Part shown: one piece after another, positions 10,330 to 39,141 of the stretch
How the letters are laid out: every line of letters begins with the position of its first letter
Position numbering within the stretch: the stretch's first letter is position 1
From: a virus
Reading direction: 5' to 3' (one strand)
Virus record (IMG/VR): IMGVR_UViG_3300030419_003343
Span: 1 to 39,141 of that record
Length of the DNA stretch: 39,141 nucleotides
Position numbers and translations under genes: made by a program
The notes under the pieces: generated by a model
The model's input: only the letters and a program-made list of their open reading frames with translations
Databases searched by the model: none
Told to the model about the DNA's origin: nothing

Positions 10330-11205
10330 CTAATCTTTTCCCCACAAGTTAAAGTTTCCTGCTGCGACAACTGATTCTTGTGGGAATTGGTATTCAACTG
10401 CATTTTCATCAATTCGAACGATTGGACGATCATCATTGGTGCCTTCTCCGATCAAGTATCCTAAAATATTTACATTAATCTCGGTAGTAAATTGACGTTC
10501 GTCATCTCCAAGGGATGCTATATTGTTATTATGTGCAAAATTCTGTTGTACAAAGGCCTCGTAGCGATGATTGTTTCTTTGTAAGATAAAAGAATTAATC
10601 TGGCCTGGTCTGGCAATAAAAGGAGCGATCAGATCATTCATCTGTTGTTGATATTCTGTCTTAATACTAATTTTATAATCTACGCTTATATAAACTGGGA
10701 TAGGAATAGAGAGAGTTTGAATCACCACCTTCTGGTTGACTCTTGGGTAATATCGCTGCTTTATTCCACCTGTGTTGGTCCTGGTTCCTGCAGCAACGGC
10801 GAAATTTCGTGTCTTGTCGGGAACGATTCTTCGAGCTATTACAAAGCGACCGGATCGGCCGTTCTTATCGGGAGAGTAAATCTGTGCTTGGAAGGACCCC
10901 TTACGGCCCGGATCTTTAGCGATACCTGTTCGTTCTACACTAAGAACGGGAAGCACAATGTTTTTCCCATCTCTTAAATCCTTAGAATGCTTAACTTGGA
11001 ATGATCTTTCTGGTACCTGCCATAGAACTGGGACCTTTTTAAAGCCTTCGTTTGTTATAGTGGAAAGATCCAAGTCTTCTTTGAGCCAAGACACCAAGGA
11101 ATAATCTATATCTTCTATAGTAGACGCAAGCATTCCCACTTCTTCTAAATTATAATCTCCCGATCCACTGGGAAGCATAGCAAAATCAAAATCATCAGGT
11201 AGCAT
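10330..11205 (-). CDS. Probable tail completion / sheath terminator protein, gp15-like
   Basis: 291 residues from ATG 11205, chosen because AAAGGGAC lies 6 nt before it; the frame is open 15 codons further up but those codons overlap the preceding gene and lack a ribosome site. No signal or membrane segment. A beta-rich middle with IPIPVYISVDYKISIKTEY, then QQQMNDLIAPF and FTTEINVNILGYLIGEG resembles the region of gp15-type proteins that follows an 'expressed linear polymerised helix' pattern in T4-like phages. T4 gp15 (272 residues) caps the sheath at the neck. Gene order neck-neck-this-sheath-tube supports a tail terminator role. Sequence similarity to T4 itself is weak by eye, so equivalence is tentative. 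Confidence 0.55.
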   Translation of the reverse strand: MLPDDFDFAMLPSGSGDYNLEEVGMLASTIEDIDYSLVSWLKEDLDLSTITNEGFKKVPVLWQVPERSFQVKHSKDLRDGKNIVLPVLSVERTGIAKDPGRKGSFQAQIYSPDKNGRSGRFVIARRIVPDKTRNFAVAAGTRTNTGGIKQRYYPRVNQKVVIQTLSIPIPVYISVDYKISIKTEYQQQMNDLIAPFIARPGQINSFILQRNNHRYEAFVQQNFAHNNNIASLGDDERQFTTEINVNILGYLIGEGTNDDRPIVRIDENAVEYQFPQESVVAAGNFNLWGKD

Positions 11206-11683
11206 CGAATAGTCCCTTTCTGGCTCGTTTACATGTGGCCACAACCTCAAAGGTATGGCCTACTTGACCAAACAATTTACGAGGTTCTTCAATTTTGGTC
11301 ATTTCATAATATGTATCACCATATAAAACAAAGTCACCCTCTCGAACAAACAAGTCTTGATCCTCTGTGAGTCTCCGATGGTGAAAATAAACCGTAATGA
11401 TGCTGCTATGATCAACACCAACATCATTCATATAAGTTGTAGACTCTTCGTCAAACTTAACAAGAGCATATACTCTAACTGGAGGCAAAAATGTTTTTTC
11501 AATTGCTTCTCCGTATAAGTCGTGAAACTTGGTGCGTTCCATATCAATGGGATAGTACAGAATTTGTTGACCAACAACTTTCTCCACCAACTCATCGTTG
11601 ACCTGTTTGACTAGATCACGCTCTTTCTTACCTAAGAATAGAGGGGGAGGTGGTGCAGTGGGTCTTTTCCATTCATTAGACAT
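11195..11683 (-). CDS. Probable neck / head-closure protein, gp14-like
   Basis: 162 residues starting at ATG 11683 only a few bases after the preceding stop; its last codons overlap the next gene's ATG (11 bp). After a Pro-rich N-terminus (TAPPPPLF) comes a helix (ERDLVKQVNDELVEKVVG) and then ILYYPIDMERTKFHDLYGEA followed by a beta-rich domain with EGDFVLYGDTYYEMTKIEEP. The pattern YYP..., then Y/FGE..., then VYALVKFDE is shared with neck proteins of T4-like cyanophages (gp14), although this protein is shorter than T4 gp14 (256). The position between a gp13-like and a gp15-like gene supports a head-tail connector role. Confidence in the exact T4 counterpart is moderate. Confidence 0.55.
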   Translation of the reverse strand: MSNEWKRPTAPPPPLFLGKKERDLVKQVNDELVEKVVGQQILYYPIDMERTKFHDLYGEAIEKTFLPPVRVYALVKFDEESTTYMNDVGVDHSSIITVYFHHRRLTEDQDLFVREGDFVLYGDTYYEMTKIEEPRKLFGQVGHTFEVVATCKRARKGLFDAT

Positions 11684-11689
11684 TCCCTA

Positions 11690-12964
11690 TTACCCCACAA
11701 AAATTGGCAGCGGTGTAACCTTCAGGACGTTCGTGGCTGCATCAGTGATTTCCTGATCTTGCTTGGCAAGTGCAACATATTCTGTCTCTTTAAGCATTTC
11801 TGCCAGCTTATCCTTTAGCTGTTGTTGCTCATCTTTGGCTTGGGAGAGGAGTTCGCTGTGATTTAGCGTCACACTTTCACCTGGAATCGGGATAGTTGTG
11901 AACTTACCTCGAATTTGCCCTAACATCTCCTTGCAAAGAGCCAATGAATACTTTCGAATCCACTGCTTACCCATTGAGTTGATATTCTGGTAGGGGATAT
12001 TGTCAAAAGGTACAGTATTGAGGTTATTGACTCCCTCTACACCGGTGTCAATAACTCCATCCAACGCGTAAGGCTCCAAATCCACATAAAACTTAACCCA
12101 AAACTTATCATCTTCGCTCGAAAACCCATAATCGCTTGGAGTGGGATAGAGGCGAAGTTTGTTGTTAATCAACTCAAAAGAAAAGTTTGATGTACGAGTG
12201 GTAATGGAGTCTTCATATGCCATGGCCTGCATTTTATTTTGCCATGTGGGTATTACCTCGAATGTAGAGTCGTCCGAGAACTGACCATAGGTACTGTAAT
12301 TCCCTACAACGTTCAATCCACCATAATAACCGTAAAACCTCCACATCGCGCGAGGCGTTACATAGTAAACTTTTGTGATAATAACACGTTTGTTACCGAT
12401 CTTGCCGGCAAACGGCACTGCGTTACCACTATCATCAGTACCAGTCGCAGAGGATGCGGATATGATACTTTGGAGGTCATAGTCTTGCACATCTCTAACT
12501 GGTGTGAAGGAAGCGGAATATTGTGGGATAGTTCCACCCATTCCGCCGGCTGCTGCTGCAGCATCTCCAACTCTTCGTGAGTAACCCAATGAAAAGCGGG
12601 GATATTTAAGATTTGACCCCGAAGGTCCTGTGAGAATATCGCCTTTATGATCGAAAGATGCCGTAGCTGAACCAAGTACATTCGAAAGTACGTTCTTACC
12701 TTGGTGTAAATTAACGATATAAGAATATTCTAATACTGCTTCTTCATACGCTGCATATACATTAGCTGGGGTTAGCTCAATATCCACAACATCGCCACCA
12801 AGCTTCTTATAAACATAAGCAACTTGGTCGGATGCTCCGCTAATAAAAGCGGCAGACCCCGTATAAATACCAAAAGGTAATGATGCTGCTACTAGAGCAG
12901 TACTACCTGTTGAGGTTAATACTATTGCGCTAGTTTGTGATACTGGGTTTAAATTTGTCGGCAT
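11690..12964 (-). CDS. Neck / head-tail connector protein, gp13-like
   Basis: 424 residues, longer than T4 gp13 (309). Features: a helical segment after TPANVYAAYEEAVLEYSYIV, a middle beta region with PRAMWRFYGYYGG and LINNKLRLYPTPSDYG, and a conserved C-terminal helix pair WIRKYSLALCKEMLGQIRGK then IPIPGESVTLNHSELLSQAK. This last block (helix, Gly-rich turn, then an acidic heptad-like helix) is characteristic of gp13-type neck proteins, which join the portal-closed head to the tail. It is the first gene of the neck block, has TAGGAG before ATG 12964 and a promoter-like motif 19 nt upstream. An Ala/Gly-rich loop (DAAAAAGGMGGT) is probably flexible. Confidence 0.65.
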   Translation of the reverse strand: MPTNLNPVSQTSAIVLTSTGSTALVAASLPFGIYTGSAAFISGASDQVAYVYKKLGGDVVDIELTPANVYAAYEEAVLEYSYIVNLHQGKNVLSNVLGSATASFDHKGDILTGPSGSNLKYPRFSLGYSRRVGDAAAAAGGMGGTIPQYSASFTPVRDVQDYDLQSIISASSATGTDDSGNAVPFAGKIGNKRVIITKVYYVTPRAMWRFYGYYGGLNVVGNYSTYGQFSDDSTFEVIPTWQNKMQAMAYEDSITTRTSNFSFELINNKLRLYPTPSDYGFSSEDDKFWVKFYVDLEPYALDGVIDTGVEGVNNLNTVPFDNIPYQNINSMGKQWIRKYSLALCKEMLGQIRGKFTTIPIPGESVTLNHSELLSQAKDEQQQLKDKLAEMLKETEYVALAKQDQEITDAATNVLKVTPLPIFVG

Positions 12965-14319: not shown

Positions 14320-16095
14320 TCAGGAGCCTGACTCACCTAGAAGTCCACGAATGACGACAAGGCCGTACATATCTGGACGAACCATCTTCTTGGCATAGCG
14401 AGTCATCACGCCCTTGCGAGGCACGAAGTCTTCTGGTCCAAAGATGGTAGGAGTGGTTTGTAGTGGCACATAAGGTGCGTATACATAACCAGACTCAAGG
14501 AATGAACCACCTCGGCGGCCGACGAGAACGACGTTGCGGAGGAAGTAAGGATCGACAATAACGTCGAACTTCTTGCTCAGCGAGCCGGTCTTAACGGCAC
14601 CAACGGATCCCTTCTCATCATCTGCGGTAACAGATGCGCGGAAGCCTGCGGTGAACTCAAGGATGTTGGCAACTTCAGGTCCGCAGACGATAAAGTTAGC
14701 ACCACCACGTAGAGTCTTACGGTGGATCTGTGCGGAGACATCATTGATAGTCTCTGCAAGAGTCTCATACCACTCACTCACGGTACCTGTGAAGTCAGGA
14801 GCAGCGGAGCTAGCGCCGATTTCGAGGCCAGTTTCGCGGTTCAAGAACATTCCAGGGGAACGTGCCCAGTAGTAGGTTGCAGCAGTTGCACCATTTACGA
14901 GGTCAGCGAGGATCTCACGGTCGATTTCAAGAGCAATTTGCTCGGAGAGAATCGAAGTAAGTTCAACCTCTGCATCCAAGTTGTGGTATGCGTTGAGGTC
15001 TTGACCCAATTCTGGTGTCCACTTGGCCTTGAGCTTCTTGGTCTGTGCGGTGACAGCCACGGAATCGACCTTGATGTCGATCTCGGGGATAAGCTCAGAA
15101 CCTTCGAGGCCCCATTCGGTTGTACCAGCAACAGAGCCAAGTCCAGTGCCAGCTGTCCAGGCATCCTTAAGAGGAAACTGGAGATCCAAGTTGATCGCAG
15201 CACCGTTGGTACCAGCAATACCACTACAGTTGACAGTACTCAAGAAGTAAAGCTGAACGTTTCCGTTAGCTCCAGTAATATGAGTAAGTCGGCGAAGCTG
15301 TTGTGTGTTTGCTGCTGTAACCGTCTCGTTGGTGACCTCTGTGATGCTCTCGATAGAAGCCGAAATCGCACCTAGGTTGTCATAATCTAGGTTGGAATCA
15401 AGACTTGCTTGAGGAACATCAATACGGATAACCCAACGTGAAGCTGCAGAAGAACTAAGAGCGAGCAAATCTGGATCGAAAACAATGCTCTTCTTCTCTG
15501 CTACGCTTGAACCAGTCAAACCGAAGCCACTTACTGAAATACTGGAAGCGGTTACGGCTGAAGAACCAGTTGGAGATGCGTAAGCATAACCACGGGCGCC
15601 AACTGTGCGGGGACCACCGAAGTCTTCCTTAAGGGTTGCACCCACAAGGTCAACACCGCCAGTAATTTGTGAACCAACCTGATCAGTACCATAGATGGAC
15701 TTATCAGCTTCGTTACCTAGACGGCTAACCATTGTGTCTGATGCACCAAGATTTGGTGAGAACACGAAATCCAGGAAGAAAATGAGACCACTAGGTAGAC
15801 TCATTGGCTGAACGGAAACCAATTCGTTTGCGATCAAACCTGCGAAAACACGACGAACGATGGGGAATGCGACGGCAGCAAAGCCTTCAACATCACCCGC
15901 GCTCATTGAGCTAGATTCGCGAAGCAATTCCTTGGCCTGGTTCTCAAGAAGACGTGCCATTCCTTGCTTCTCACGGTCATTGTCAAGTCCTTCTAGAAGA
16001 CCTGTGCGCTCCCACTTTGATAACAAAGCGTGACCTTCGGCGCGCATATCACGGTTGACAACACCTTCGGTCAACCTTTCGATAATACTAGCCAT
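14320..16095 (-). CDS. Major capsid protein, T4 gp23-type
   Basis: 591 residues; T4 gp23 has 521. The conserved gp23 signature is clear: FPIVRRVFAGLIANELVSVQ, then PMSLPSGLIFFLDFVF at about residues 77-112. A helical N-terminal region (1-60) resembles the gp23 delta domain that is removed during maturation; LRE at residues 58-60 fits the T4 protease rule (L/I-x-E) and gives a cut close to the T4 position (residue 65). The rest shows HK97-type features: KKLKAKWTPELGQDLNAYHN, a helical AEVELTSILSEQIALEIDRE, and near the C-terminus DVIVDPYFLRNVVLVGRRGG. It has a strong AAGGAGG before ATG 16095, follows the scaffold gene and is closed by a terminator. Confidence 0.93.
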   Translation of the reverse strand: MASIIERLTEGVVNRDMRAEGHALLSKWERTGLLEGLDNDREKQGMARLLENQAKELLRESSSMSAGDVEGFAAVAFPIVRRVFAGLIANELVSVQPMSLPSGLIFFLDFVFSPNLGASDTMVSRLGNEADKSIYGTDQVGSQITGGVDLVGATLKEDFGGPRTVGARGYAYASPTGSSAVTASSISVSGFGLTGSSVAEKKSIVFDPDLLALSSSAASRWVIRIDVPQASLDSNLDYDNLGAISASIESITEVTNETVTAANTQQLRRLTHITGANGNVQLYFLSTVNCSGIAGTNGAAINLDLQFPLKDAWTAGTGLGSVAGTTEWGLEGSELIPEIDIKVDSVAVTAQTKKLKAKWTPELGQDLNAYHNLDAEVELTSILSEQIALEIDREILADLVNGATAATYYWARSPGMFLNRETGLEIGASSAAPDFTGTVSEWYETLAETINDVSAQIHRKTLRGGANFIVCGPEVANILEFTAGFRASVTADDEKGSVGAVKTGSLSKKFDVIVDPYFLRNVVLVGRRGGSFLESGYVYAPYVPLQTTPTIFGPEDFVPRKGVMTRYAKKMVRPDMYGLVVIRGLLGESGS

Positions 16096-26642: not shown

Positions 26643-28034
26643 TTACTCTCTTTTGATACCAGCTAATTTTTGCCATCTATAAATAGTTGATTCTTTAATT
26701 AAACCTTCGCCGTAAAAGTTAGGTATACCTGAGCCGGCAGCCGGGACGTTCGAGCGTTGTGTTTCAACATTTGCCTTAGAGATTGCGGCGAGGAGGCCCG
26801 GATTGGCCTCTCTCTCTTCTTCTATAAGCTCATTAACCGCGGTCTCAAACTTCCGGTATGTTGTCATAATCTTTTCGTTATTGCCGGTGTATTTTTGGAG
26901 TTTCTTCCCGATTTCCTTCATTTGGGTTTTTACAACAAGCTGACCATCATCGTTAACAGTAAGAAGTTTCTTTACTAATTCCCCATATAAATCAGGGCCG
27001 AGGCCGTCTTCGAGTTCTTGTTTGATTGTTTTCACGCCGGTAGCGGCTTTTGCCACTTGTGAGACCTTTTTTGCCTGCCCAAACAACTTGATTATTTTAG
27101 GAGACTTGGCCATCGCAGCGCCGCCAGGGATAGCAGACAAACTTAAAGCAACTACATCTACTAATGCCCATGCGTATTTTGGGGGATCATAAGTCAGATT
27201 GTTAATAAGCGAAGCGGCGGTAGCTCCACCTCCAATAATCTGGCCGGGACCTGGAAAGAAGCTAGCCAAAGAACCCAAATCGGCGAGGCCGCCGAGAACA
27301 TCTTTAGCTCTGTCTGAGAGACTTTTCTCGGGGCTTTGTATATCATGTTCTTCCTCATCGGTACCTCTACCCGGAATATTTTGGGTTTCGTCATCTCCTG
27401 GAGCTTCTTCTGGTGATGGTTCTTGTGCTGGTTGTGGTTTTGGCGATGGCTCTTGTGCTGGTCGTGGCTTGGGGGGACCAGGGGCATGCTGTTGCATCCG
27501 GTTTAATGTATAATCTACGGCATTGACACTCTTTATTGAGAAGCCGGCTGTGATGAAAAGCTCCATAAGCTTTACGTAATTGTCGTATTGGCTTCCGTGA
27601 AGTTGGAATAAGAACTTCGAGAGTTCGGGAAACTTCACCTCATCCCAGATAAATGATGCGCGGTTTCTATCGCCAAGTCGGGCGGCTTGAAGCTTCATAC
27701 TGCTTGCTTCGGTGTCGGGCACAAACTCTTCCTTGATAGTAAGCTTCTGCTCCGCTAACATCTCTTCAAGTTCTTCAAGAATCTTCGTTCGTCGGGCTGG
27801 GTCGTCTAGACCTATCTCGGTCATAAAGTGCAAGATCATGCGAAGGCCGTGGGCCGGGAACTCTCCTTCTTCAAATTGCGGCCCTTCCGCTTCTGCGTCA
27901 GCAACCCCAATATTTTTGAGATTCACGGGGCCTCGCTGGGCCTTTCTTTTTGAAGCAGCAGACTGGCCGAAGCCGAAAGCTTCAGTTAAAAACTCTTGCC
28001 ATGCATCTTGGAAATCTTTAGTCTTACCGTTCAT
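26643..28034 (-). CDS. Core-type protein with hydrophobic Gly/Ala segment and C-terminal QKLAGIK motif
   Basis: 463 residues from ATG 28034 (GAGG upstream); another ATG at 28049 is in frame but has no ribosome site. The N-terminus KTKDFQDAWQEFLTEAFGFG recalls the short capsid-targeting peptide of T4 internal proteins (Phe/Tyr, then EF[IL].EA). Residues about 185-215 are Pro-rich tandem repeats (PRPAQEPSPKPQPAQEPSP). Residues about 245-305 are hydrophobic and Gly/Ala-rich (SFFPGPGQIIGGGATAASLI, then VDVVALSLSAIPGGAAMA) and could pair with a membrane. The C-terminus, WQKLAGIKRE, nearly repeats that of the scaffold. The gene overlaps the protease by 11 bp. It could be an internal head or ejected protein; identity is unknown. 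Confidence 0.65.
   Translation of the reverse strand: MNGKTKDFQDAWQEFLTEAFGFGQSAASKRKAQRGPVNLKNIGVADAEAEGPQFEEGEFPAHGLRMILHFMTEIGLDDPARRTKILEELEEMLAEQKLTIKEEFVPDTEASSMKLQAARLGDRNRASFIWDEVKFPELSKFLFQLHGSQYDNYVKLMELFITAGFSIKSVNAVDYTLNRMQQHAPGPPKPRPAQEPSPKPQPAQEPSPEEAPGDDETQNIPGRGTDEEEHDIQSPEKSLSDRAKDVLGGLADLGSLASFFPGPGQIIGGGATAASLINNLTYDPPKYAWALVDVVALSLSAIPGGAAMAKSPKIIKLFGQAKKVSQVAKAATGVKTIKQELEDGLGPDLYGELVKKLLTVNDDGQLVVKTQMKEIGKKLQKYTGNNEKIMTTYRKFETAVNELIEEEREANPGLLAAISKANVETQRSNVPAAGSGIPNFYGEGLIKESTIYRWQKLAGIKRE
26679..26687 (-). promoter_or_regulatory. Late-promoter-like motif before the 138-residue gene
   Basis: Minus-strand ACTATTTAT, 37 nt before ATG 26641, inside the 3' end of the preceding coding sequence. 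Confidence 0.5.
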
Positions 28035-28632
28035 CGTCCAAGACCTCATTCAATAAACGATAAATGCGGTCAGACTTGGTGAATACTTCATTCTTATAAT
28101 CCTTAGCTTCTTTCATCATAAAAGCGCCTGGTGTCGAAGGTTCAGACACCACATCGAAACAGATCAATTGAAAATCATCTTCTACGATAGTCTGTCCGTT
28201 GTTTTCTGTAACCGACCCCATGCCGCGTGATGAAATGCCGATAGCACAACCACCCTCAACAAGAGAGCGTAGAATCTTACCAGAAGGAGTATCGAGAACT
28301 TTAATCTTTCCCATCACTTTGTTTTCTTCCATCCAACAAGATGTCACAATGTGAGAGGCATTTTTGAGGTTGATTACGGAGTCATCAGGGTGATCAAGCT
28401 CACCGAGTGCTCGACGTTCTTTTACAAGCTTTTGATAGTTTTTTACTTCCTTCATTAAAACCGACGAGGGGTAAATGCGACCATTACCATTAACCGTTTC
28501 GGCCATCTGCATGATGCCCGACAAGATCATTCCGCCGTCTGTTACAAATCTCTTTTCCTCTTCGGTAAGAAGATCTTGACAGACGCCGCCTTCACATAGT
28601 TCATAGTATTCTCGTAAAAGTACTTTACTCAT
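28024..28632 (-). CDS. Prohead core maturation protease, T4 gp21-type
   Basis: 202 residues, close to the T4 gp21 length (212). The fold of herpesvirus-type serine proteases is visible: GGMILSGIMQMAETVNGNGR, then IYP, the histidine in ALGELDHPDD (His81), and the serine in GISSRGMGSV (Ser134/135), followed by FQLICFDVVSEPSTPGAFM. His and Ser are the expected catalytic residues. It cuts scaffold and capsid N-terminal domains at L/I-x-E sites and then destroys itself. It overlaps the 463-residue gene, and AAGGG precedes ATG 28632. It lies about 11 kb from scaffold and capsid, separated by the fibre island and bS21, unlike T4 where 21-22-23 are adjacent. Confidence 0.9.
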   Translation of the reverse strand: MSKVLLREYYELCEGGVCQDLLTEEEKRFVTDGGMILSGIMQMAETVNGNGRIYPSSVLMKEVKNYQKLVKERRALGELDHPDDSVINLKNASHIVTSCWMEENKVMGKIKVLDTPSGKILRSLVEGGCAIGISSRGMGSVTENNGQTIVEDDFQLICFDVVSEPSTPGAFMMKEAKDYKNEVFTKSDRIYRLLNEVLDDER

Positions 28633-28635: not shown

Positions 28636-29754
28636 TTAACCCTTCATTTCATTTAAAACTGCTTGAAATTCTTCTTCAATAACATAGCGCAACGCTTCTT
28701 TTGTGAGGCCTCCTTGGGTTGCCGCTAAAGCTTGTTCTGCTTCTCGGGCATCAAGACTTGCTTGGCGTTCAGGATTAAATCCAGTTGCGCCTTGAATTCG
28801 ATCAGTTTGGCCGCGATTTGCCAAATCTACACGAAGTGCATTTACTCTCTGTATAACGCGATTAAGTACGCCCTCAGTCATATTAAAAATACGCATGAGT
28901 TTTTGTCTGTCCTGGTCACTGATTTGACTATTAAAAGCCTCAAGTTTATTCAACCTTTCTTTGGAAGCAATGAGATCTTCGTTGGAGCCTGTGTAGTCTT
29001 TAAGTTGATCAATATTCGTTACTCCACCGTAGTCGCCTTGGGCAAGGTATGAGTTAGCGGTCGCTGTTGTGTTGAAATATAAACTCCAATCTTCGGCCGC
29101 GTGCTCCAGCTTATCCTTAGTGTCTTCCATTAGATACCGACTAATCAACCCTAGAGCTTCATATTCAGAAGGTGTTGCTGGTGCATTTTCTCCGCGCATT
29201 TGAATAGCTAACTGAATAGCATTCATGGCCGACAGAGCTTCCATACATCTAAGTAATACATCAGTGATATCTCCCTTAACACCAAGCGAAAACCACTCTG
29301 TAACATCAATAAGAGGATTATCTGGATCAGTTGTGGATCCCACTGTGCCCGCCCATGTAGGGGCGTCCTGTCTTTCCTCGGTACTTAACATACCAGCCAC
29401 ACCAAAAGGCCATGAAGCGAAACGTTGTTCGCCGGTCGGTCTCCATTTTGCTGTCTGGGAGAGGTAGTCCCACAGTGGGCGGCCGTCGAGCATGGAATCA
29501 AGTTTCCAATCGCTCTCTTTCTTCTGTTCAATGAATTCAGCCGTTTTTTCAGCAACAGTTCCGCCGGAAGATACTTTGGACATGTCTTTCATAAATGTCT
29601 CAACATCTCCCTTAGAACGACTGGCTGCTCTTTGGGCCCACTGATTAACTGGGGCTGCAACCTTATTCCACAGGCTAGCAAGGAAATTTTCCTGCAGCAC
29701 TTCATTAAGTTCGTGTTGAATGATTTCATTAAGATATTGTTTTTTAATCTTCAT
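28636..29754 (-). CDS. Probable head core/internal protein with addressing helices at both ends
   Basis: 372 residues, mainly helical. The N-terminus MKIKKQYLNEIIQHELNEVL belongs to the same helix class as the starts at 26225, 35685 and 37841; the C-terminus (TKEALRYVIEEEFQAVLNEM) repeats the same pattern. The middle contains LSTEERQDAPTWAGTVGS, then YLMEDTKDKLEHAAEDWSLY and a helical region with ASKERLNKLEAFNSQISDQD. No membrane or enzyme motif. AAGGAA precedes ATG 29754. It is placed immediately before the prohead protease, so a protease substrate or core protein is a fair guess. I do not recognise a named family. Confidence 0.65.
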   Translation of the reverse strand: MKIKKQYLNEIIQHELNEVLQENFLASLWNKVAAPVNQWAQRAASRSKGDVETFMKDMSKVSSGGTVAEKTAEFIEQKKESDWKLDSMLDGRPLWDYLSQTAKWRPTGEQRFASWPFGVAGMLSTEERQDAPTWAGTVGSTTDPDNPLIDVTEWFSLGVKGDITDVLLRCMEALSAMNAIQLAIQMRGENAPATPSEYEALGLISRYLMEDTKDKLEHAAEDWSLYFNTTATANSYLAQGDYGGVTNIDQLKDYTGSNEDLIASKERLNKLEAFNSQISDQDRQKLMRIFNMTEGVLNRVIQRVNALRVDLANRGQTDRIQGATGFNPERQASLDAREAEQALAATQGGLTKEALRYVIEEEFQAVLNEMKG

Positions 29755-30732: not shown

Positions 30733-31549
30733 CGCTAATAATCTCCTCTACGAGTGATTGTGTTTTCAATATAGAGAACACAATATTCTCTTCAATTCCG
30801 CTGGTGCGATAACTATCCAACTTCTCGATCACCCTACTTGTCTTTTCCGACAACTCTTCATCGGCGCTAATAATATCGTTAGCTAAAGACGCAACAAGCG
30901 TTTCTCTCAAGGATGCAATTTCTGTATTTAAGAATGTTTTAAGTTGAACACCATTATCGACAAAGGAAGTAATATAGTGATTCAAGAGAGTCTTTTGGTT
31001 TTCTAATAAGTCATCCTTGTATTTCTCGTTAAATCTCTTAACAAAAGATGTCATAATAATATTGTCGATAGGCTCCATTGTCTCTTGTTTGTTTTCCGAT
31101 AACATCATGTTCTCAATAATGCTGTTCTCAAGAATAATAGTATTCTTTGGTGACGGCTTATCAGAAAACATCTGTGCTATAGATGCTAGCGTCTTATAAT
31201 TGGGAACAAAATTATTAAACACAGCCGGGGTCAACTCTTTGTTGACATCTGCAATAAGGTCACTTTGGCTCAAAAACAAACCTTCTGTGTCCAACAGGCG
31301 ACTGGCTAACTTTGCTTCCTTTACAATCTTCTCTGCTATCTCTCTTGGGAGATTCTGATTCTCATATAGAGATCGATAATTCTGCAGATCTTTGTATAGT
31401 ACAGATCCTGGGACAAAATGCTTTTTAATAATTGCAACAACTTTTTCTTTAGTCTCGTGGCTTTCTTTTATAATTGCCACGGTCGCTTCACGTATTAAGG
31501 CTTCAAATACGAATGCTGTATTACGCTTTTTGTTGTGTTTTATTTTCAT
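30722..31549 (-). CDS. Helical portal-proximal protein, function unknown
   Basis: 275 residues, nearly all helical. The N-terminus is basic (MKIKHNKKRNTAFVFEALIR), then helix after helix with Leu/Ile/Glu/Lys and few Gly or Pro. Proteins with an N-terminal 'KRNTAF.[FY]E.L.RE' occur just after the portal gene in T4-like marine phages, but their function is not established to my knowledge. The gene overlaps the end of the portal coding sequence by 29 bp, has GGAG before ATG 31549, and itself overlaps the next gene by 11 bp, so the three are co-translated. It may be a core protein that nucleates on the portal, in the way T4 gp67/68/22 do. Role inferred from position. Confidence 0.6.
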   Translation of the reverse strand: MKIKHNKKRNTAFVFEALIREATVAIIKESHETKEKVVAIIKKHFVPGSVLYKDLQNYRSLYENQNLPREIAEKIVKEAKLASRLLDTEGLFLSQSDLIADVNKELTPAVFNNFVPNYKTLASIAQMFSDKPSPKNTIILENSIIENMMLSENKQETMEPIDNIIMTSFVKRFNEKYKDDLLENQKTLLNHYITSFVDNGVQLKTFLNTEIASLRETLVASLANDIISADEELSEKTSRVIEKLDSYRTSGIEENIVFSILKTQSLVEEIISDGN

Positions 31550-33545
31550 CCTGTTGCTCCGTTAGTATTTCTTTTTCTTCGAGACCTTCGATCAAAGACC
31601 GAATAGAATCATTGAGTTCAAACAATTTGCTCTCTTCTTCATCCTCTTTCAACTTATAAATAGATTGATCTTGTTCATAAAGACTTGCTAAACCGTGCAT
31701 TCCTGTCAGAGTGTCCATATCAGTCTTACCAGGGAATGTATTTCGAGGCGTTGAACTACTCTTCTCTCTGTTGCCTGCTGCAGCAAAAGAACGACTTCTA
31801 GCTCCGGCAGGGCGAGCGTCTGTCTTAACAGGCCGGTACTTTGCGCCTCCCTTATAAGTGCGGACATCACGCGAGCCAGGAGGAACGGCCAATAGGGCGG
31901 ATTCTGCGGCTTCGTCGCCTGCGGCCGCTTCACCAGCTGGCATTTCTTCTGGGCCTCCCCCAAGGTCTCCTTCAGGGGCCCCTCCTAGATCGCCGCCAAG
32001 ATCTCCACCTAGATCGCCACCAAGGCCTCCGCCTAGGTCACCGCCAAGACCACCGCCAAGACCGCCGGCGCCGGCTGCGGCGGCAGTTTCTGCCACCTGT
32101 TGAAGCTCCGCATCATGAGTGCGATCATAGTACATCTCGCGCTGATTCCGAATGAATTCTTCATTAGACATACCAAAGATGTGTTCTGCGACCCAACGAC
32201 GTGAGAAGTAACCTTCTGTCGCAGAGCCTGCTATATCAAACTTTTGTTTCCAATGCTCAAGCTCTTGAAGCTCTGCAATTTTCGATGGATTGTTCAGAGC
32301 TAACTTAAAACTCAACAGATCATCGCCGCGGAACCCAAGAGTATAAAGATGGATGATTCCAATCTTCTCTAGTTCTGCAATAATAACTCGTTGAAGTCTT
32401 TGGACAGTGCGCGCAAAACGGATATCCTTTTGAGCTAAGGTTGTCTTGTCTTCTGCGGCGCCTTCACCCATTGCTAGATACGCTTGGGGAATTTTAAGTG
32501 CAGAAAACAACTTATCGCGCAAATACTTAATATCATCGATTTGTGTAGTGTTTTGTCCTCCAGCAAGATTCTGGATATCTGTTACAGAACCTGCTCGGAC
32601 CGGAATAAAGTAATCTTCCTCAACGGCCATAGGGTTGTAACGCAGATCAATGCGGCCGGTCTTGGCATCTACCACAGAATGGCGCTTCAGTTGCGATACT
32701 GTCTTTTGCATAAATTGTTCGACTTCGTTTGGTGGAACAGCGCCAACGTCGATTTTAAATACGCGACGTTCGGAAGAACGAATCACGCGATAGGCCATCA
32801 TGGCATCTTCCATGAGAGTAAGCTGACGCCAAATACGACGGGCAGGTTCAAGGATGGAAGTTCCATAGGGGGCGTATTTATCATTACCAAGGATGCGGAA
32901 GTGGGCGACCTGCCAATTTTCAAAAGTCATGCCGGCAGAGTTCCACTGGTATTGGATATAATTTGGGTTTGTTGAGTCTTGTCCTTCTAATCTTTCGATT
33001 TCCATAGGAGGGAGCGCGATGACGGATTTAACACCAAAGTTATCGTCAATGTCCAAATACAAAAAGAAGTCACCATACTTGCACATTGTACGCGACCAAC
33101 CAAAGAGATTGTATTGAATATTAAGGATCTGATCGTAAAGAGTGGTTAAGACTGCTTTGATTTCTTCGTTACCAGACTTTACATTAAGCATCGGACGAAG
33201 GTCAGAATAAGTTGTCATCTCGTCTGCATAGATGTCCATGGTAGAGGCAATCTCTGGCATGTATTCCATCTGATCAAAATCGACATAGCGTTCGGATCGA
33301 CGTTGATTTTGGATAGCATTTGTAGCAATCGTATCAAGCGGGTTATATTGGGCTTTCTTAAACTGTTGGCCCGACGCAGACTTAAAGCGCGAAGAGAATT
33401 TATCCAGATGCTGGCGACGGATTCGGCGACCGGTCTGTGAACGATAATTGATAATGGGGCCCGAGAATAATCTCGTAAGAGCTTTGAATAGATCAGTATC
33501 TCTGTTTGCTGGGTTTTGGCCCTGATTTCTTTTTCTTTGTGCCAT
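31521..33545 (-). CDS. Portal protein, T4 gp20-type, with Gly-rich C-terminal tail
   Basis: 674 residues; T4 gp20 has 524. Conserved portal elements: EYMPEIASTMDIYADEM at about 94-110, then FGWSRTMCKYGDFFLYLDID, then a stretch with PYGTSILEPARRIWRQLTLM, EDAMMAYRVIRSSERRVFKI, and GEGAAEDKTTLAQKDIRFAR. The portal ring is the first structure in head assembly and the channel for DNA. After residue about 490 the chain is a Gly/Leu/Asp-rich linker (GGLGGDLGG repeats) and then a polar, Arg-rich region ending in a Glu-rich helix; this tail is absent from T4 gp20. It begins 15 bp downstream of the terminase gene; GTGAGGA lies 12-13 nt before ATG 33545. Confidence 0.92.
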   Translation of the reverse strand: MAQRKRNQGQNPANRDTDLFKALTRLFSGPIINYRSQTGRRIRRQHLDKFSSRFKSASGQQFKKAQYNPLDTIATNAIQNQRRSERYVDFDQMEYMPEIASTMDIYADEMTTYSDLRPMLNVKSGNEEIKAVLTTLYDQILNIQYNLFGWSRTMCKYGDFFLYLDIDDNFGVKSVIALPPMEIERLEGQDSTNPNYIQYQWNSAGMTFENWQVAHFRILGNDKYAPYGTSILEPARRIWRQLTLMEDAMMAYRVIRSSERRVFKIDVGAVPPNEVEQFMQKTVSQLKRHSVVDAKTGRIDLRYNPMAVEEDYFIPVRAGSVTDIQNLAGGQNTTQIDDIKYLRDKLFSALKIPQAYLAMGEGAAEDKTTLAQKDIRFARTVQRLQRVIIAELEKIGIIHLYTLGFRGDDLLSFKLALNNPSKIAELQELEHWKQKFDIAGSATEGYFSRRWVAEHIFGMSNEEFIRNQREMYYDRTHDAELQQVAETAAAAGAGGLGGGLGGDLGGGLGGDLGGDLGGDLGGAPEGDLGGGPEEMPAGEAAAGDEAAESALLAVPPGSRDVRTYKGGAKYRPVKTDARPAGARSRSFAAAGNREKSSSTPRNTFPGKTDMDTLTGMHGLASLYEQDQSIYKLKEDEEESKLFELNDSIRSLIEGLEEKEILTEQQDENKTQQKA
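31656..31664 (-). promoter_or_regulatory. Late-promoter-like motif inside the portal gene's 3' end
   Basis: Minus-strand TCTATTTAT about 106 nt before ATG 31549. Within coding sequence, so weaker evidence. Confidence 0.25.
31951..32085 (-). repeat. Gly-rich coding repeats in the portal tail
   Basis: Degenerate 9-15-bp repeats encode GGLGG/GGDLGG units. Such tracts change length easily by slippage. Confidence 0.65.
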
Positions 33546-33559: not shown

Positions 33560-35143
33560 TCACTTTATAATCCATTTATATTCGTCCCAATAGGACTTTG
33601 CTTCAGACATTATATCAGTTGCATTGTTGGGTTTGTATCCATTTTGGCCTTTTATTTGTGTATTCATAGTAGTTTTAACTGTGTAGATTGCATCAACAAA
33701 GGCTTTTTGATAATTTAAGTCGCGAGCATTTGCCTGAATAGCCGTATCTCTAACCCAGCAAGCAATCGCCAAAGCCATGATTAGATCATCATTATAGCTC
33801 TTCATTGCTTGGGGTCTTCCGTTCCTCCAAATAAACGTCTTAAATTCATTCACTGTTCGTGAAGAATATACTTTAATTAGTTTATTTCTTATAAACTCCT
33901 CTAATTTCGCAACGATCAGAGGTCTCGTTTTCATGCTGGTGGTAAAACCAGCGACTGCAGATGTCCTATGTTCTGCAACGTGTTGTTCCACATACTCGTG
34001 AGTTGACTTAATAGAATAGTAAACATTGGGATATGCAAATTCTGTCAACTTATCCAAAACGGTATAACCAATATTATTGTTCTCAACTACCATCATAGCA
34101 TTTCCAAACTCTCGACCTACCTGATTCAACATTACAGCAAACATGTCGGGAGTCGGCTTGCCTTGATATTCTCCCACGATTTCTAGAGTTTCTAATTTAA
34201 TAATATGAAAAGTTGAGAAATCGGCTCCATCGCCTCTTGATACGTCAACAGACATAAGATAGTTACAAGTAGGGTCGAACTCTTCCCAAATCCAAAAGTT
34301 GCGGTCAAAGCCTGTGCGATACTTTGGTTCGCAGACATTTGATAGGAGCCATTCCATATCATCGGGATCGATAACAGTTTCACCAGAAGTATTGAAGTTA
34401 CACTCTAGCTCCTGCGCAATCTGTCGCTTTGACATGTTTTTGGTTTCTTTCTTGTACCATTCTTTGTCGCGGTCTGGGTGAACATCCCAAGGAAGTGTCG
34501 TTAAGTGAAAATTGTTTGTGCCGCTTTCAGCATCAGTGCAAGTCTTATGAAACCAGTTTCCGACACCATTAGGTGTTGACAACGCAATACATCGTCCACC
34601 TGTCGATAGTGTAGGATATAGACCTGTCCATAGTTCTTCGAGACCTTCGATGTGGGCGGCCTCATCAAGAACCAACAAAGACAGTGCTTCTGAACGACCC
34701 GCATCGCCGGAGGTTGAAGCGGCTTTAATGGTTGAGCCATTAGAAAGCTCAAAAGATGTACGGTTATCTACATCAATACTGGCAATCTTAATCCATTCAG
34801 GCAGGTTGCGCATTACGCCCTTTACTTTCTTTACAAGGTTTCCTGCTGTGGCAAACTTGGTTGCCATAACAAGAATCGACTTGTCGCGGTGGAAAAGCAT
34901 CAGCCATACAATATAGCCTGCTGTGATCGTTGAGATACCAAGCTGGCGCGCTTTCAGAATAACATTAAAACGATAATCATTAAAATCTTGGAGTAACTCA
35001 TCTTGAAAATCATATGTGTCAAATAAAATCAGCCCGTGCATCGGATGGGATATACGGGCATATGTTTTTAAGAAATAGGCAGGATCCTTACCGCACTTTA
35101 ATATCTCTTTTACTTTTTGTTTTTTGTCTAGTTCGAAACTCAT
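33560..35143 (-). CDS. terL: Terminase large subunit (TerL), T4 gp17-type
   Basis: 527 residues. ATPase: deviant Walker A ARQLGIST at 65-72, Walker B SLLVLDE at 154-160 (catalytic Glu160), and coupling motif LSTPNG at 187-192. Nuclease (RNase H-like): Asp299 in SVDVSRG, Glu353 in VVENNN and Asp451/452 in YNDDLIMALAIA are the expected metal ligands. It packages DNA through the portal and cuts concatemers (headful packaging is probable by T4 analogy). No small terminase gene of known type is seen next to it; the 177-residue gene upstream could fill that place. There is no good Shine-Dalgarno before ATG 35143, and translation is probably coupled to the gene just upstream, which stops 8 nt away. 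Confidence 0.95.
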   Translation of the reverse strand: MSFELDKKQKVKEILKCGKDPAYFLKTYARISHPMHGLILFDTYDFQDELLQDFNDYRFNVILKARQLGISTITAGYIVWLMLFHRDKSILVMATKFATAGNLVKKVKGVMRNLPEWIKIASIDVDNRTSFELSNGSTIKAASTSGDAGRSEALSLLVLDEAAHIEGLEELWTGLYPTLSTGGRCIALSTPNGVGNWFHKTCTDAESGTNNFHLTTLPWDVHPDRDKEWYKKETKNMSKRQIAQELECNFNTSGETVIDPDDMEWLLSNVCEPKYRTGFDRNFWIWEEFDPTCNYLMSVDVSRGDGADFSTFHIIKLETLEIVGEYQGKPTPDMFAVMLNQVGREFGNAMMVVENNNIGYTVLDKLTEFAYPNVYYSIKSTHEYVEQHVAEHRTSAVAGFTTSMKTRPLIVAKLEEFIRNKLIKVYSSRTVNEFKTFIWRNGRPQAMKSYNDDLIMALAIACWVRDTAIQANARDLNYQKAFVDAIYTVKTTMNTQIKGQNGYKPNNATDIMSEAKSYWDEYKWIIK

Positions 35144-35151: not shown

Positions 35152-35685
35152 TTAGCGTGAATCATTCTTTGGGCGCTTGCCTTTCCAGCCACCTTGGTTA
35201 AGGAAAGTCTCCCAACTCTTTTCGACAGGGTTGGCGTTACCGGAATTGTCGTCGTTCATAGCCTCATCGAGACCACCAACCTTAAAGTGCTTTTTGGCGG
35301 TCACCCAAGAGCGTACACGAGATGAGTTCTCGGCAAAGATATCAACCTCGCCTTCGGCAGTAAGAGTTACTGAATCACCAGTGATTCGTTTGTATTCTTT
35401 CTTAAGCCAGCCAGCAATATCAGACATGCGTTGATCGATATCCGATTCGAAGCCGGGGCCATAAATTTCTTTAAGTTGGATTTCAGATTGATAGGTAAGG
35501 CACATCATATTACCATAAAACTTCACACCAAAGCCGTCCATCACGCGACGGTCGATAAGCATATCACCTTCTTCGCGACGTAAGGCGCCTGTCTTTACTG
35601 GTTCATAATCTTCTCCAAGCGCTCCATCGTATGCGTTGGCTGCGGCTTGTGAGAGTCCTTGTACTATTTCGTATACTGTTGCCAT
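35152..35685 (-). CDS. Uncharacterised protein upstream of terminase
   Basis: 177 residues, mixed alpha/beta. It begins ATVYEIVQGLSQAAANAYDG, then RREEGDMLIDRRVMDGFGVK, then MMCLTYQSEIQLKEIYGPGF and DIAGWLKKEYKRITGDSV. The C-terminal 30 residues are polar and Gly/Lys/Asn-rich (SWETFLNQGGWKGKRPKN). No signal, membrane or enzyme motif. It overlaps the preceding gene's stop by one base (TAATG) and has GGAG in front, so it belongs to the same operon as the terminase. The place is that of the small terminase in T4 (16-17), but no helix-turn-helix or coiled-coil typical of small terminases is evident, so that assignment is only a possibility. Confidence 0.6.
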   Translation of the reverse strand: MATVYEIVQGLSQAAANAYDGALGEDYEPVKTGALRREEGDMLIDRRVMDGFGVKFYGNMMCLTYQSEIQLKEIYGPGFESDIDQRMSDIAGWLKKEYKRITGDSVTLTAEGEVDIFAENSSRVRSWVTAKKHFKVGGLDEAMNDDNSGNANPVEKSWETFLNQGGWKGKRPKNDSR

Positions 35686-36044
35686 TATACTTTTGCTCCT
35701 GCGGGTGGAGGAGCGGCCGATGGATCTGTGGTTGCGGGGGGAGAATCCTTAACTTGGCCATGGACAAGATCATGCAATCTGCTAACTAGGGTTTTCACTT
35801 GGCCGCCTGCTTGATTTCCGGGTTCCTGTAGAAGAGTCAAAATCTTTTCTAATGCCGCAGCGACATCTACTTCTGCCTGGGCTAGATTGCCGGCATCTTG
35901 GGCGCGTTGGCTGCCGGTAACACCGCGATATGCCTTTTGGAGCGCAGCTTTACCGCCTTGAAGCTTGTCAAGCAGGCCCTCATGTTGTAATTCTTCCATT
36001 TCCTCTTTAATAATCTGTTTAAGTTGTTCTTTTGTGATTTTCAT
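35685..36044 (-). CDS. Small helical protein with MKITK addressing helix
   Basis: 119 residues from ATG 36044 (GGAG 7 nt upstream; overlaps the preceding stop as ATGA). The N-terminus MKITKEQLKQIIKEEMEEL is the clearest example of the shared motif. Then come GLLDKLQGGKAALQKAYRGV, an Ala-rich helical middle (DAGNLAQAEVDVAAALEKIL) and a Pro/Ala-rich end (TTDPSAAPPPAGAKV). No membrane or signal sequence. The combination of a short amphipathic N-terminal helix and low-complexity chain suggests a structural or internal-head protein. It is co-translated with the zinc-ribbon gene in front and the 177-residue gene after it. I do not recognise a family. Confidence 0.6.
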   Translation of the reverse strand: MKITKEQLKQIIKEEMEELQHEGLLDKLQGGKAALQKAYRGVTGSQRAQDAGNLAQAEVDVAAALEKILTLLQEPGNQAGGQVKTLVSRLHDLVHGQVKDSPPATTDPSAAPPPAGAKV

Positions 36045-36412
36045 TTTGGTCTCCATCCTTTTAACCATCTTTCTTCTCTACCGTCCACATGTTGAATGTA
36101 ACATTTATTGCAACAATCAAATTTGGTGAGACAAACATCGTCCATTGATTTCTTTGGATAAGCTCCGCAGACCGAACAACATCTTAGAGATTCTCTATTA
36201 AGTAGTTTTTTTGAAACCTTTATACCATTTATGTCAACTTTTTCCTGCTGTTCTTCTTTCTGGTAAGATTTCTGATAGAATTCTTTGGATTGCTCCAAGT
36301 ATTCTTTTTCCTTTTCCTCATCCCAATTTGCGCGGGGATTCTGGATAGCTTCATCTCCATATTTTTTGGATATCGCTTGCTCAACAGCGGCGATGCGATC
36401 AGGCTTATCCAT
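36041..36412 (-). CDS. Small zinc-ribbon protein, function unknown
   Basis: 123 residues. The first 60 are charged and helical (ANWDEEKEKEYLEQSKEFYQ and following). The second half has CCSVCGAYPKKSMDDVCLTK followed by FDCCNKCYIQHVDGREERW: Cys79/82 and Cys101/104 form two CxxC pairs for a single zinc. Similar small proteins with the spacing C..C.AYPK...C..CY..HVDGREERW are common near terminase genes of marine myoviruses, but no function is known to me. AAGGTG precedes ATG 36412, which overlaps the upstream stop (TAATG). It could be a packaging or DNA-binding accessory. Structure assignment is good, function is not. Confidence 0.65.
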   Translation of the reverse strand: MDKPDRIAAVEQAISKKYGDEAIQNPRANWDEEKEKEYLEQSKEFYQKSYQKEEQQEKVDINGIKVSKKLLNRESLRCCSVCGAYPKKSMDDVCLTKFDCCNKCYIQHVDGREERWLKGWRPK

Positions 36413-36840
36413 TAGTTGAACACCTTATAGGCTCCGTATGAAACCGCAAGCCCGGCACCTACGCCGCCCACAAACCACATCCAGCGATTGTCAGACGAAA
36501 GTCTAGACAGCGTGTCCTGTAGGCTGCTTATTTGTTTTTGTTGTGCGGCGATTGTTAAATCTTTCTGTTGAATCTGCGACTCATAGCCGATTCGTTGATT
36601 GTCCATTTCAAGTTGAAGTTCTGTTCGTAAGGTTCCAAGTTCAAGTTTCATTCGACTTTGGCAATTTAAGGTTAGTTGCTCTTCTAATGTTAGAATTCTC
36701 GATGTGGCTACCACATCAAAGAGGGCGCCTTCAAATGGGGCGCACTGTCCTTCTCCTAATAATGTAAACCGACCAGCATCTTCAGCGATTGCTGTGTTAC
36801 ATAGAAACATACTCAAAATTAAAACTGTTAATGATTTCAT
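36412..36840 (-). CDS. Secreted coiled-coil protein with C-terminal membrane anchor, spanin-like
   Basis: 142 residues. Residues 1-20 are a signal peptide (KSLTVLILSMFLCNTAIA, with an A-x-A cleavage site before EDAG); it is not a lipobox, because the residue before Cys is Leu. Then comes a two-Cys segment, a long coiled coil (about 50-112), and a C-terminal membrane stretch (WFVGGVGAGLAVSYGAY). This arrangement, periplasmic coiled coil tethered to a membrane, resembles a spanin component. The gene overlaps the preceding inner-membrane coiled-coil gene by 44 bp, as spanin pairs often do. Outer membrane linkage is not evident, so it is a spanin-like guess only. GAAGAG precedes ATG 36840. Confidence 0.55.
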   Translation of the reverse strand: MKSLTVLILSMFLCNTAIAEDAGRFTLLGEGQCAPFEGALFDVVATSRILTLEEQLTLNCQSRMKLELGTLRTELQLEMDNQRIGYESQIQQKDLTIAAQQKQISSLQDTLSRLSSDNRWMWFVGGVGAGLAVSYGAYKVFN

Positions 36841-37189
36841 TTGCTAACTCTTCTTTGTTTTGTGAAAACTTTTTTTCAATATTCTTTCGCTTCTCGTCAA
36901 TCAAATCTTGATTGCGCTCTTGCTCTTCTAAATAGTTTTGCTCAAGCTCTTCGAGAGTGTCGCGATAGTTGTCGAGGGCTTCTTCTTTTTTACGAAGCTC
37001 TTCGGCATGGATAGCATGCAAGCCATCAATTTGCTCCTGAAGGGCTGCAGACTGTTCCTCATAAATACGAACCATCAATCGGTGATCGTAACGCATTTTT
37101 CCAAATACCACAAGCGCCAGAAGTACAATGGCGATTTCCTTCCAGTATACTTTAGCGTAAGGTAAGAGTCTGATTAATATCTGGGGCAT
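36797..37189 (-). CDS. Inner-membrane coiled-coil protein, i-spanin-like (Rz-type)
   Basis: 130 residues. One N-terminal membrane stretch (about 17-29, EIAIVLLALVVFG) with a positively charged flank, then a long charged coiled coil (about 40-115). This is the layout of Rz-type inner-membrane spanins, which bridge the inner and outer membranes after holin/endolysin action. The start overlaps the holin-like gene's stop (TGATG), and the gene overlaps the next one by 44 bp. A holin-like gene directly in front and a secreted coiled-coil gene directly after support a lysis role. No endolysin is visible in this window. Length is near that of Rz (about 150). Confidence 0.55.
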   Translation of the reverse strand: MPQILIRLLPYAKVYWKEIAIVLLALVVFGKMRYDHRLMVRIYEEQSAALQEQIDGLHAIHAEELRKKEEALDNYRDTLEELEQNYLEEQERNQDLIDEKRKNIEKKFSQNKEELANEIINSFNFEYVSM

Positions 37190-37383
37190 CAGCCGGCCTT
37201 CTTCAGTCTCTCGACAATATCAACCGCACCTTGTGTGCCGATGAATACGATAGAAATGGTAACCCAATCGTTGCTGGTCAAATAACCAGCGAATGCCAAC
37301 GCAGATGCGGTGGTCCACACCAACAGCTTGCGGGATGTAAATTTCTCTAGCCATGTGTCAATAAATGCTTTTGTTCTAGCCAT
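37189..37383 (-). CDS. Holin-like small membrane protein
   Basis: 64 residues with two hydrophobic segments, about 20-34 (LLVWTTASALAFAGY) and 41-53 (VTISIVFIGTQGA), between charged ends. The pattern FTSRKLLVW..., then YLTSNDW..IS.V.IGTQGAVD is typical of small two-TM phage holins of marine phages. In holin action the protein forms membrane lesions that release endolysin or collapse the membrane potential. It is followed by spanin-like genes and preceded by a small basic protein. AAGGAAG precedes ATG 37383. Holin function is inferred from topology and neighbours. Confidence 0.6.
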   Translation of the reverse strand: MARTKAFIDTWLEKFTSRKLLVWTTASALAFAGYLTSNDWVTISIVFIGTQGAVDIVERLKKAG

Positions 37384-37840: not shown

Positions 37841-38152
37841 TTATTCCTGGCTGCGGGCTTGAGGGTCCAGCGCTTCATCTAAGGCTTCCTTAATATATTT
37901 TCTTAATTGTGCCTCGTCAATGTCTTTTGGGAGAGAAGATTTGATAGCAGGTGCTGCAAATCGACCCATAGTTTTTTGAGCAGAACCCAGACTCATCGGA
38001 TCCTCACCGGTAAAAGCAGAAGCAAGGTAGTCTATACTGATGTCCAAATCTTCTATTTTTGCAGTAAGTTTGTGAATTGCGTTAATAAGTTTTTCATTCG
38101 ATTCGACTTCTTCGAGAAGGATTTGTTTTATTTGTGATTTAGTAATTTTCAT
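37841..38152 (-). CDS. Small helical protein coupled to the FtsZ-like gene
   Basis: 103 residues from ATG 38152, which overlaps the stop of the FtsZ-like gene (ATGA), so the two are translationally coupled. The N-terminus MKITKSQIKQILLEEVESN is the addressing-type helix; the middle (NAIHKLTAKIEDLDISIDYL) is a probable coiled coil; then FTGEDPMSLGSAQKTMGRFA, and the C-terminus IDEAQLRKYIKEALDEALDP repeats the helix pattern. No membrane or signal segment. The coupling and helix-rich form make it a candidate regulator or partner of the filament protein, but it could equally be a virion protein using the addressing signal. Confidence 0.65.
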   Translation of the reverse strand: MKITKSQIKQILLEEVESNEKLINAIHKLTAKIEDLDISIDYLASAFTGEDPMSLGSAQKTMGRFAAPAIKSSLPKDIDEAQLRKYIKEALDEALDPQARSQE

Positions 38153-39141
38153 GTTGCTAATCCATTCATACTTAGTATCGCAATCAATCCAGGCACATTC
38201 TTTCTGACATAAACGCCAGAGAAAAGTGTCTCGCATCTTCCACCAACATAAGCAATCGCTGACTCGATGTTTTTACTAACCTTCGGGTCTGATGCCATCT
38301 CTTCCGAAACTACCAATACTAACGATCCTGCTGCGGCCTTACCTTTCGGTGGAGGACATGCAGAACGATTCATGCAGTTATGAAGAATCACCGATCCAAG
38401 CTTTCCAGTATTTGGATCTTTTATCATTGTCGAACCTAAGAAGGCGCGACCGTCATTACTCAAGCAAGTTTCCAAATCCTTCGAATCAAAAGATTGGATC
38501 GGTGAATCCTCGGTGGAGAGTTTAAGTACTTGAGCAAACGATTTAGCAAACTGGGTATTTGCGACAGGGTACATGCCAAGCATGCCGATTCTGCCGCGTA
38601 GTAAACGTGTGGCTCGTTCATTATCAAGAATAATGTGTGGATGCGGAGTGACATCGTTTGCCAGCGTCAACGCATTACGAGCGATTGTGGGGTTAAGATT
38701 TTCTTGTGCGGTTGGCCAGGATACTACGTAAACGACTTTACCAGAAGCCTGAACAGAACGTAAGTAACGCTCAAAGACAGGCTGAAGAGCAGTAACAGAA
38801 GAGCCGGTGCCACCACCGCCGCCAGCAAGAACAAAAAGCCAATCAACTTTTCCGAGTTTAATTCGGAGTGCATCTTCAACGATAGCGCCATTTTGTGATA
38901 GGACCTCCTTGCCATATTCAACGTTCTTACCAATACCATCTGAATCAGGAATCAGTACAACGTGGTCTTCTTCGACATTCTTTGGGATATCTTTCCCTGT
39001 GGTGTTAACCAACAGGGTCTTGTTGAAACCAAGCTCAATAAAAGCATTGGCCATTTTGTTGCCTCCACCGCCGACGCCTACAAAGCCCACGTTCAATGAA
39101 GATGGAGCGGTATTTTCAGGGAGGAGGTCTTCGTCGGAATA
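38149..39141 (-). CDS. Tubulin/FtsZ-like GTPase (5' end off the window)
   Basis: At least 330 residues; the frame is open to the window edge, so the true start is outside and the TTG at 39096 need not be the start. N-terminal GTP-binding loop GFVGVGGGGNKMANAF (FtsZ: GVGGGG), tubulin signature motif GGGGGTGSS (about 38797-38823) in VLAGGGGGTGSSVTALQP, the PHIILDNERA strand/helix, and a T7-like loop FDSKDLETCLS with two Asp three residues apart as in FtsZ, expected to complete the GTPase of the neighbouring subunit. The second domain (LVLVVSEEMASDPKVSKN and following) ends shortly after SGVYVRKNVPGLIAILS, with no long C-terminal linker or FtsA/ZipA-binding tail. It is thus a complete filament-forming core. 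Phage tubulins (PhuZ, TubZ) are known in other phages. Confidence 0.9.
   Translation of the reverse strand, partial: YSDEDLLPENTAPSSLNVGFVGVGGGGNKMANAFIELGFNKTLLVNTTGKDIPKNVEEDHVVLIPDSDGIGKNVEYGKEVLSQNGAIVEDALRIKLGKVDWLFVLAGGGGGTGSSVTALQPVFERYLRSVQASGKVVYVVSWPTAQENLNPTIARNALTLANDVTPHPHIILDNERATRLLRGRIGMLGMYPVANTQFAKSFAQVLKLSTEDSPIQSFDSKDLETCLSNDGRAFLGSTMIKDPNTGKLGSVILHNCMNRSACPPPKGKAAAGSLVLVVSEEMASDPKVSKNIESAIAYVGGRCETLFSGVYVRKNVPGLIAILSMNGLAT

Follow-up and report, generated by a model that had tools for sequence, protein, structure and literature searches.

Does the gene that runs off one end of a 39,141-base uncultured viral contig (IMGVR_UViG_3300030419_003343; "the window" is this whole stretch of DNA) encode a phage tubulin, and what might such a protein do there? 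The gene is the last open reading frame (ORF) of the window (38149-39141, minus strand); it is stop-free over 330 amino acids (aa) and has no start inside the contig. It matches the Pfam Tubulin family PF00091 with 36.2 bits (E 9.6e-9; curated cut-off, 33), a match that is repeated at the genome level, and at the level of sequence we regard it as confirmed that the ORF represents a tubulin/FtsZ-superfamily GTPase truncated by the contig end. In this superfamily, GTP bound on loops T1-T6 of one subunit is hydrolysed once the following subunit docks with its T7 loop, and the GTP cycle leads to polar protofilaments that turn over. Among phage tubulins, roles are known for PhuZ, from jumbo phages that form a nucleus, and for TubZ, from plasmid-like phages.

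A scan of viral contigs located relatives encoded on 164 contigs, the best 80 of which are 90-98% identical. A sequence-only reading of the window had proposed recovering the missing N-terminus, and the first 50 residues were found in the intact relatives: 71 full-length copies start about 50 residues earlier, with a conserved tail, MSDENDNKNEFDFLPPAEPPPSFNQEKDHYHEQVDAEDFGMVEDFGLQME, and intact copies are approximately 378-395 aa long. The ratio of nonsynonymous to synonymous substitution rates (dN/dS) among these 71 homologues is about 0.04, in core and tail alike (0.039 for tail residues 10-59); this strong purifying selection excludes a chance ORF. One full-length copy, of 380 aa, lies in a 195,459-base contig that also contains seven tRNA genes and that, since it has a 127-base terminal repeat, represents a complete genome of about 195 kb with a circular map. 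In this genome, tubulin is gene g14, which follows g15 by ten bases and whose stop overlaps the next start (ATGA); the same overlap 3' of tubulin was seen in 68 of the loci examined.

The family was widened by a degenerate signature scan and then by an alignment-based scan, a procedure from which members without the GGGGG signature may have escaped. It reaches down to about 50% identity and occurs on contigs of up to 281 kb, with exactly one tubulin copy in each of ten large carrier contigs tested. The T7 loop with its acidic residues is present in 145 of 149 family proteins and the GGGGGTGS signature in 143 of 149; all the GTPase loops are kept, and the protein is apparently active. The layout is fixed in the family alignment and consists of a variable-length acidic N-terminal tail, the GTPase core and a C-terminus that ends right after the last strand, 12-19 residues past LPGLIA. 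The FtsZ C-terminal peptide, D-[IL]-P-x-[FWY]-[LIVM], which the sequence-only reading had described as lacking in the window protein, is found in none of the 149 proteins. Likewise, there is no C-terminal extension of the TubZ or PhuZ type, and both the structural model and the sequences lack the H11 helix and tail found at the C-terminus of TubZ.

In the tail, some 25 residues ahead of the GTPase core, lies a DDFDFVEAY-like motif. In the other proteins of these genomes, the motif has 1 match in 327,792 residues against 4.6 expected, so that it is nearly confined to the tubulin and was rejected as a hub peptide common to other phage proteins. A DDFDFAML string resembling it in the window protein at 10330-11250 is an isolated case. 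Two other explanations of the tail were also rejected. Conserved release by a gp21-like protease does not agree with the sequences, since the tail ends with LLPE|N, an L-x-E site, in the window lineage and with QLPD, MLAP or MLPS in distant members; mimicry of the FtsZ peptide was discarded because the D[IL]Px[FWY] motif was not found.

An AlphaFold2 model calculated from 51 diverse relatives shows a tubulin fold with two subdomains. Its predicted local distance difference test score (pLDDT) is 88.1 (about 95 in the core, with a disordered tail) and its predicted template modelling score 0.82; with 13 near-identical rows, the pLDDT was 50, and the calculation was rerun with the diverse set. 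Residues 63-380 of the model match solved tubulin-type structures with Z scores of 26-32, in particular 32.1 for TubZ, 31.7 for CetZ and 28.4 for FtsZ, differences that are too small a basis for ranking closeness. When a sequence profile is compared with PDB sequences, FtsZ is the best match (5e-11), followed by the CetZ-like 3zid and then TubZ; PhuZ is absent from the matches, and there is no match to phrog_4733 (PhuZ). E. coli FtsZ is aligned across the full core, including both T7 aspartates, and the score for TIGR00065, the cellular FtsZ equivalog, is 49.9 bits, below the cut-off of 295. The Pfam match, the model and the conserved loops thus bear out the sequence-only prediction of a tubulin/FtsZ GTPase fold with intact catalytic loops, and its judgement that the sequence is closer to FtsZ than to PhuZ also stands. 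The FtsZ-likeness itself holds only for the sequence profile: by fold, the protein resembles TubZ and CetZ no less than FtsZ, and among the sampled sequences the family is nearest to gp138 of Bacillus phage G.

In a phylogenetic tree, the family members form a single clade (99/99); nine FtsZ or FtsZ-like sequences (100/99) and five PhuZ sequences (100/99) lie in separate clades. A larger group (95/87) joins the family with phage G gp138, a 66% relative of gp138 and a protein of a 340 kb jumbo contig, to the exclusion of FtsZ and PhuZ; long branches caution against reading the tree in detail, and TubZ and CetZ sequences are not included in it. We therefore regard the protein not as an FtsZ but as the founder of its own family. 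No family member except the remote phage G protein occurs among 50,697 public phage genomes, and no plasmid relatives were found. Two scans of genome contigs gave no cellular relatives, a weak negative because the patterns were narrow, and an earlier description of the family was not found in the open-licence literature.

Comparison with the known systems clarifies what is particular to this family. Phage G gp138, annotated as a "putative FtsZ-like cell division protein", is also a tubulin-fold GTPase of similar length with LDNE and FDxxDL loops, but it is only about 24% identical, its gene has nucleotide-metabolism genes, not virion genes, as neighbours, and it has a C-terminal extension and no N-terminal DDFDF tail. 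PhuZ of the nucleus-forming jumbo phages (Chimalliviridae) is a phage tubulin too and offers a model for the role proposed below (DNA positioning, capsid movement), although it belongs to a separate clade and has a C-terminal tail; a query with the nuclear shell protein gp54 of phiKZ gave no match in 7 carrier genomes, in a search that had no positive control. Cellular FtsZ shares the T1, signature and T7 loops and a core ending after the last strand, whereas its identity is about 20% and the family has an N-terminal tail in place of the C-terminal linker and peptide. TubZ, known from Bacillus plasmids and Clostridium botulinum phage c-st, is likewise a tubulin of mobile elements and gives the highest structural score, but its sequence match is weaker than that of FtsZ. 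The archaeal CetZ proteins, which were compared by fold and profile, include the top Foldseek match, and the profile alignment to 3zid extends through the C-terminal domain; they differ in identity (21-23%) and in genomes and context.

Tubulin belongs to the core genes of a large, uncultured clade of marine T4-type phages. With the terminase large subunit (TerL) rather than tubulin as the basis for sampling loci, the tubulin gene was present in all 14 loci that had at least 6.5 kb of upstream sequence, and the tubulin-TerL distance was 2.3-4.9 kb over 23 loci. In the TerL tree, a branch with support 100 separates the 14 carriers from 17 non-carriers, several of which are partial contigs; the gene is also absent from two complete cultured phages and from a 162 kb contig. 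Flavobacterium phage immuto and Microcystis phage Mel-JY01 are the nearest cultured phages, and their TerL proteins are only 43-44% identical. Tubulin has a median identity of 95% to its window counterpart, compared with 84% for TerL, 72% for the portal, 54% for the holin-like protein and 39% for the spanin-like protein; in paired contig comparisons, tubulin identity exceeds that of TerL in 115 of 115 and that of the portal in 67 of 67.

The synteny of 73 diverse loci was used to sort the genomic slots of the gene. In 24 loci, it is flanked by the major capsid gene on one side and the neck gene (Ad2, phrog_211) on the other, and the sheath gene follows; in 6, it lies in the portal-protease interval and in 3 in the protease-scaffold interval. 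Another 6 have the slot of the window itself, upstream of the lysis and TerL genes. At least 8 slot changes are needed on the tree, which means that the gene has been relocated repeatedly, yet mostly among virion genes.

These genomes also contain a candidate late promoter. The 8-mer ACTATTTA shows a strong strand bias and is over-represented upstream of scaffold, neck and sheath genes; its core CTATTTA occurs 37 times on one strand and twice on the other in one genome. The window has nine occurrences of ACTATTTA, all on the coding strand, against 1.4 expected. A slightly looser form is found upstream of tubulin itself in 22 of 71 loci, where about 6 sites are expected. The T4 late promoter TATAAATA was rejected because it had 0 upstream matches; ACTATTTA is a putative late promoter that differs from that of T4.

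We tentatively favour the reading that the protein is a tubulin-superfamily GTPase of a distinct phage family, made with the virion proteins and serving as a GTP-driven filament scaffold for late virion assembly. In this scheme, the tubulin would be produced together with the virion proteins, bind GTP and assemble head to tail into FtsZ-like protofilaments, with turnover through hydrolysis at the T7 loop of the following subunit. The filament would act as a scaffold inside the cell, where procapsids, necks or packaging DNA would be positioned or gathered, and the conserved acidic N-terminal tail may be an arm that binds a phage partner. PhuZ brings procapsids along treadmilling filaments (PMC8314001), and probable expression with heads and necks, together with a conserved exposed peptide, makes the family fit a comparable assembly scaffold. 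It is possible, but more doubtful, that the family represents a third phage-cytoskeleton lineage, independent of PhuZ and TubZ, in abundant marine T4-type phages without a detectable nucleus; its filaments would recruit head and neck proteins via the N-terminal peptide, and assembly would be spatially organised rather than diffusive.

Several points weigh against a scaffold function. The conserved GTPase loops are insufficient to prove polymerisation, and the putative promoter is a motif rather than a mapped start. The association of the tubulin gene with virion genes is not universal, since in 19 of the 73 loci its neighbours are a sigma-r4-like gene, PhoH and a DUF444-SpoVR-PrkA operon, and in 15 the tubulin gene lies elsewhere. 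Moreover, no dedicated partner gene travels with tubulin in the 73 loci.

An alternative is that the tubulin fold has been recruited as a fixed structural or chaperone-like component of the head or neck, not as a dynamic filament. In line with this, the gene is placed exactly between those for major capsid and neck in 24 loci and within the head block in others, and few proteins of the phage are as conserved as tubulin. We nevertheless consider it unlikely, though the most probable of the rivals, because the nucleotide and catalytic loops, needless for a purely structural protein, are all kept, because the slot shifts among relatives (8 changes on the tree), unlike those of fixed neck genes, and because the tested sister phages have the same head genes but no tubulin. 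Next in probability, and also unlikely, is a protein directed against host division, which would co-polymerise with or cap host FtsZ, so that septation is blocked and the infected cell is kept large. In favour of this, FtsZ is the best sequence match among solved structures and the divisome-linking peptide is lacking; but the low identity to FtsZ and the separate clade argue otherwise, as do very slow evolution and placement among virion genes, which are unlike those of typical host-takeover genes. The option of interference with host division, raised by the sequence-only reading, is thereby weakened.

A TubZ-like system that segregates or positions the replicating phage genome is less probable again. 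TubZ is a top fold match, and a weakly ParB-like gene (L082:10213-11277; phrog_1033, E 4e-4) lies directly upstream of tubulin in the window lineage, but that neighbour was seen only in this lineage, a C-terminal helix and tail of the TubZ type are missing, and no constant DNA-binding partner adjoins the tubulin: no constant TubR-like neighbour was present in the 73 loci, in one slot of which a small sigma-r4-like gene is adjacent, and no search for centromeres was made. Finally, FtsZ, which all bacteria possess, could end up in viral bins by cellular contamination or as a host gene on a misassembled contig. The results refute this explanation, for the tubulin is encoded in the terminally redundant 195 kb phage genome and in the same place in many contigs with phage genes on the flanks. 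The sequence-only reading had named a position inside cellular FtsZ with host-like flanks as the outcome that would overturn it; the family instead forms a separate clade carried by phage genomes.

The features of the window are listed in Table 1. The late-gene context described in the sequence-only reading is indeed of the T4 type, with a gp20-type portal, a gp23-type major head protein, a T4-type terminase and a contractile sheath.

Table 1. Features located in the window
Feature	Position	Strand	Match
Predicted tubulin/FtsZ-superfamily GTPase, 3' 330 codons (first 50 codons beyond contig end)	38149..39141	-	
Remaining end of conserved acidic N-terminal tail (YSDEDLLPENTAPSSLNV)	39088..39141	-	
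Nucleotide-binding loop FVGVGGGGN (FtsZ T1 equivalent; GVGGGGN motif)	39058..39084	-	
Tubulin signature AGGGGGTGSS (T4 loop)	38797..38826	-	
LDNERATR, equivalent of FtsZ PNDKL guanine-site segment	38605..38628	-	
Catalytic T7 loop FDSKDLET, both FtsZ aspartates present	38467..38490	-	
Next gene, translationally coupled to tubulin stop (ATGA overlap), begins MKITKSQIKQILLEE (head-targeting-like tag)	37841..38152	-	
Holin-like small membrane protein	37189..37383	-	phrog_126, weak
Rz-like spanin candidate	36797..37189	-	phrog_1403, weak
TerL	33560..35143	-	
T4-type portal protein (gp20)	31521..33545	-	PF07230, 2e-76
Head maturation protease	28024..28632	-	phrog_207
Major head protein; tubulin gene directly 3' of its counterpart in many relatives	14320..16095	-	
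Neck / head-tail adaptor Ad2; tubulin gene directly 5' of its counterpart in many relatives	11690..12964	-	phrog_211
Tail sheath, 985 residues	7264..10221	-	
ACTATTTA sites (putative late promoter)	5475, 7243, 10273, 12985, 17292, 25969, 26680, 29986, 36929	-	

Some further observations concern the genes around the tubulin. Many small late and prohead-core-like proteins begin with tags of the form MKKLFENWRKxLNE or MKITKxQLKxIIKEE (or ...FLTE), which recall T4 capsid-targeting propeptides with an (L/I)xE end; examples are the window proteins 37841-38152, 35685-36068, 26643-28049 and 28636-29754, and genes g10-g20 of L082. The hypervariable cassette directly 3' of tubulin consists of genes that mostly bear tags of these two types. 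A head-targeting-like tag is also present on the ParB-like product of L082, which is possibly an injected internal protein. Many relatives have a tandem pair of tail-sheath-like genes, each coding for about 1,000-1,100 residues (L371:14393-21026, L355, L375, L381 and others), compared with one in the window. A remote GroEL-like protein (phrog_5725, 2e-20) is conserved among these phages (L370:6373-7740; L088 g191). The DUF444-SpoVR-PrkA operon, a bacterial stress/sporulation module, is complete (E 1e-112 to 1e-135) where it adjoins the tubulin slot in L370, L384, L390, L369 and others, and is absent from the L006 genome; in the 340 kb jumbo contig, a 1090-aa PrkA lies about 7 kb from the tubulin.

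For the evolution of the tubulin/FtsZ superfamily, the family provides a new deep branch with an inverted layout, in which the putative interaction tail is N-terminal, and it supplies a protein that is directly testable. As a core, slowly evolving gene of a T4-type marine clade, often situated among capsid and neck genes, this tubulin would mean that cytoskeletal control of virus assembly reaches phages without a recognised nucleus.
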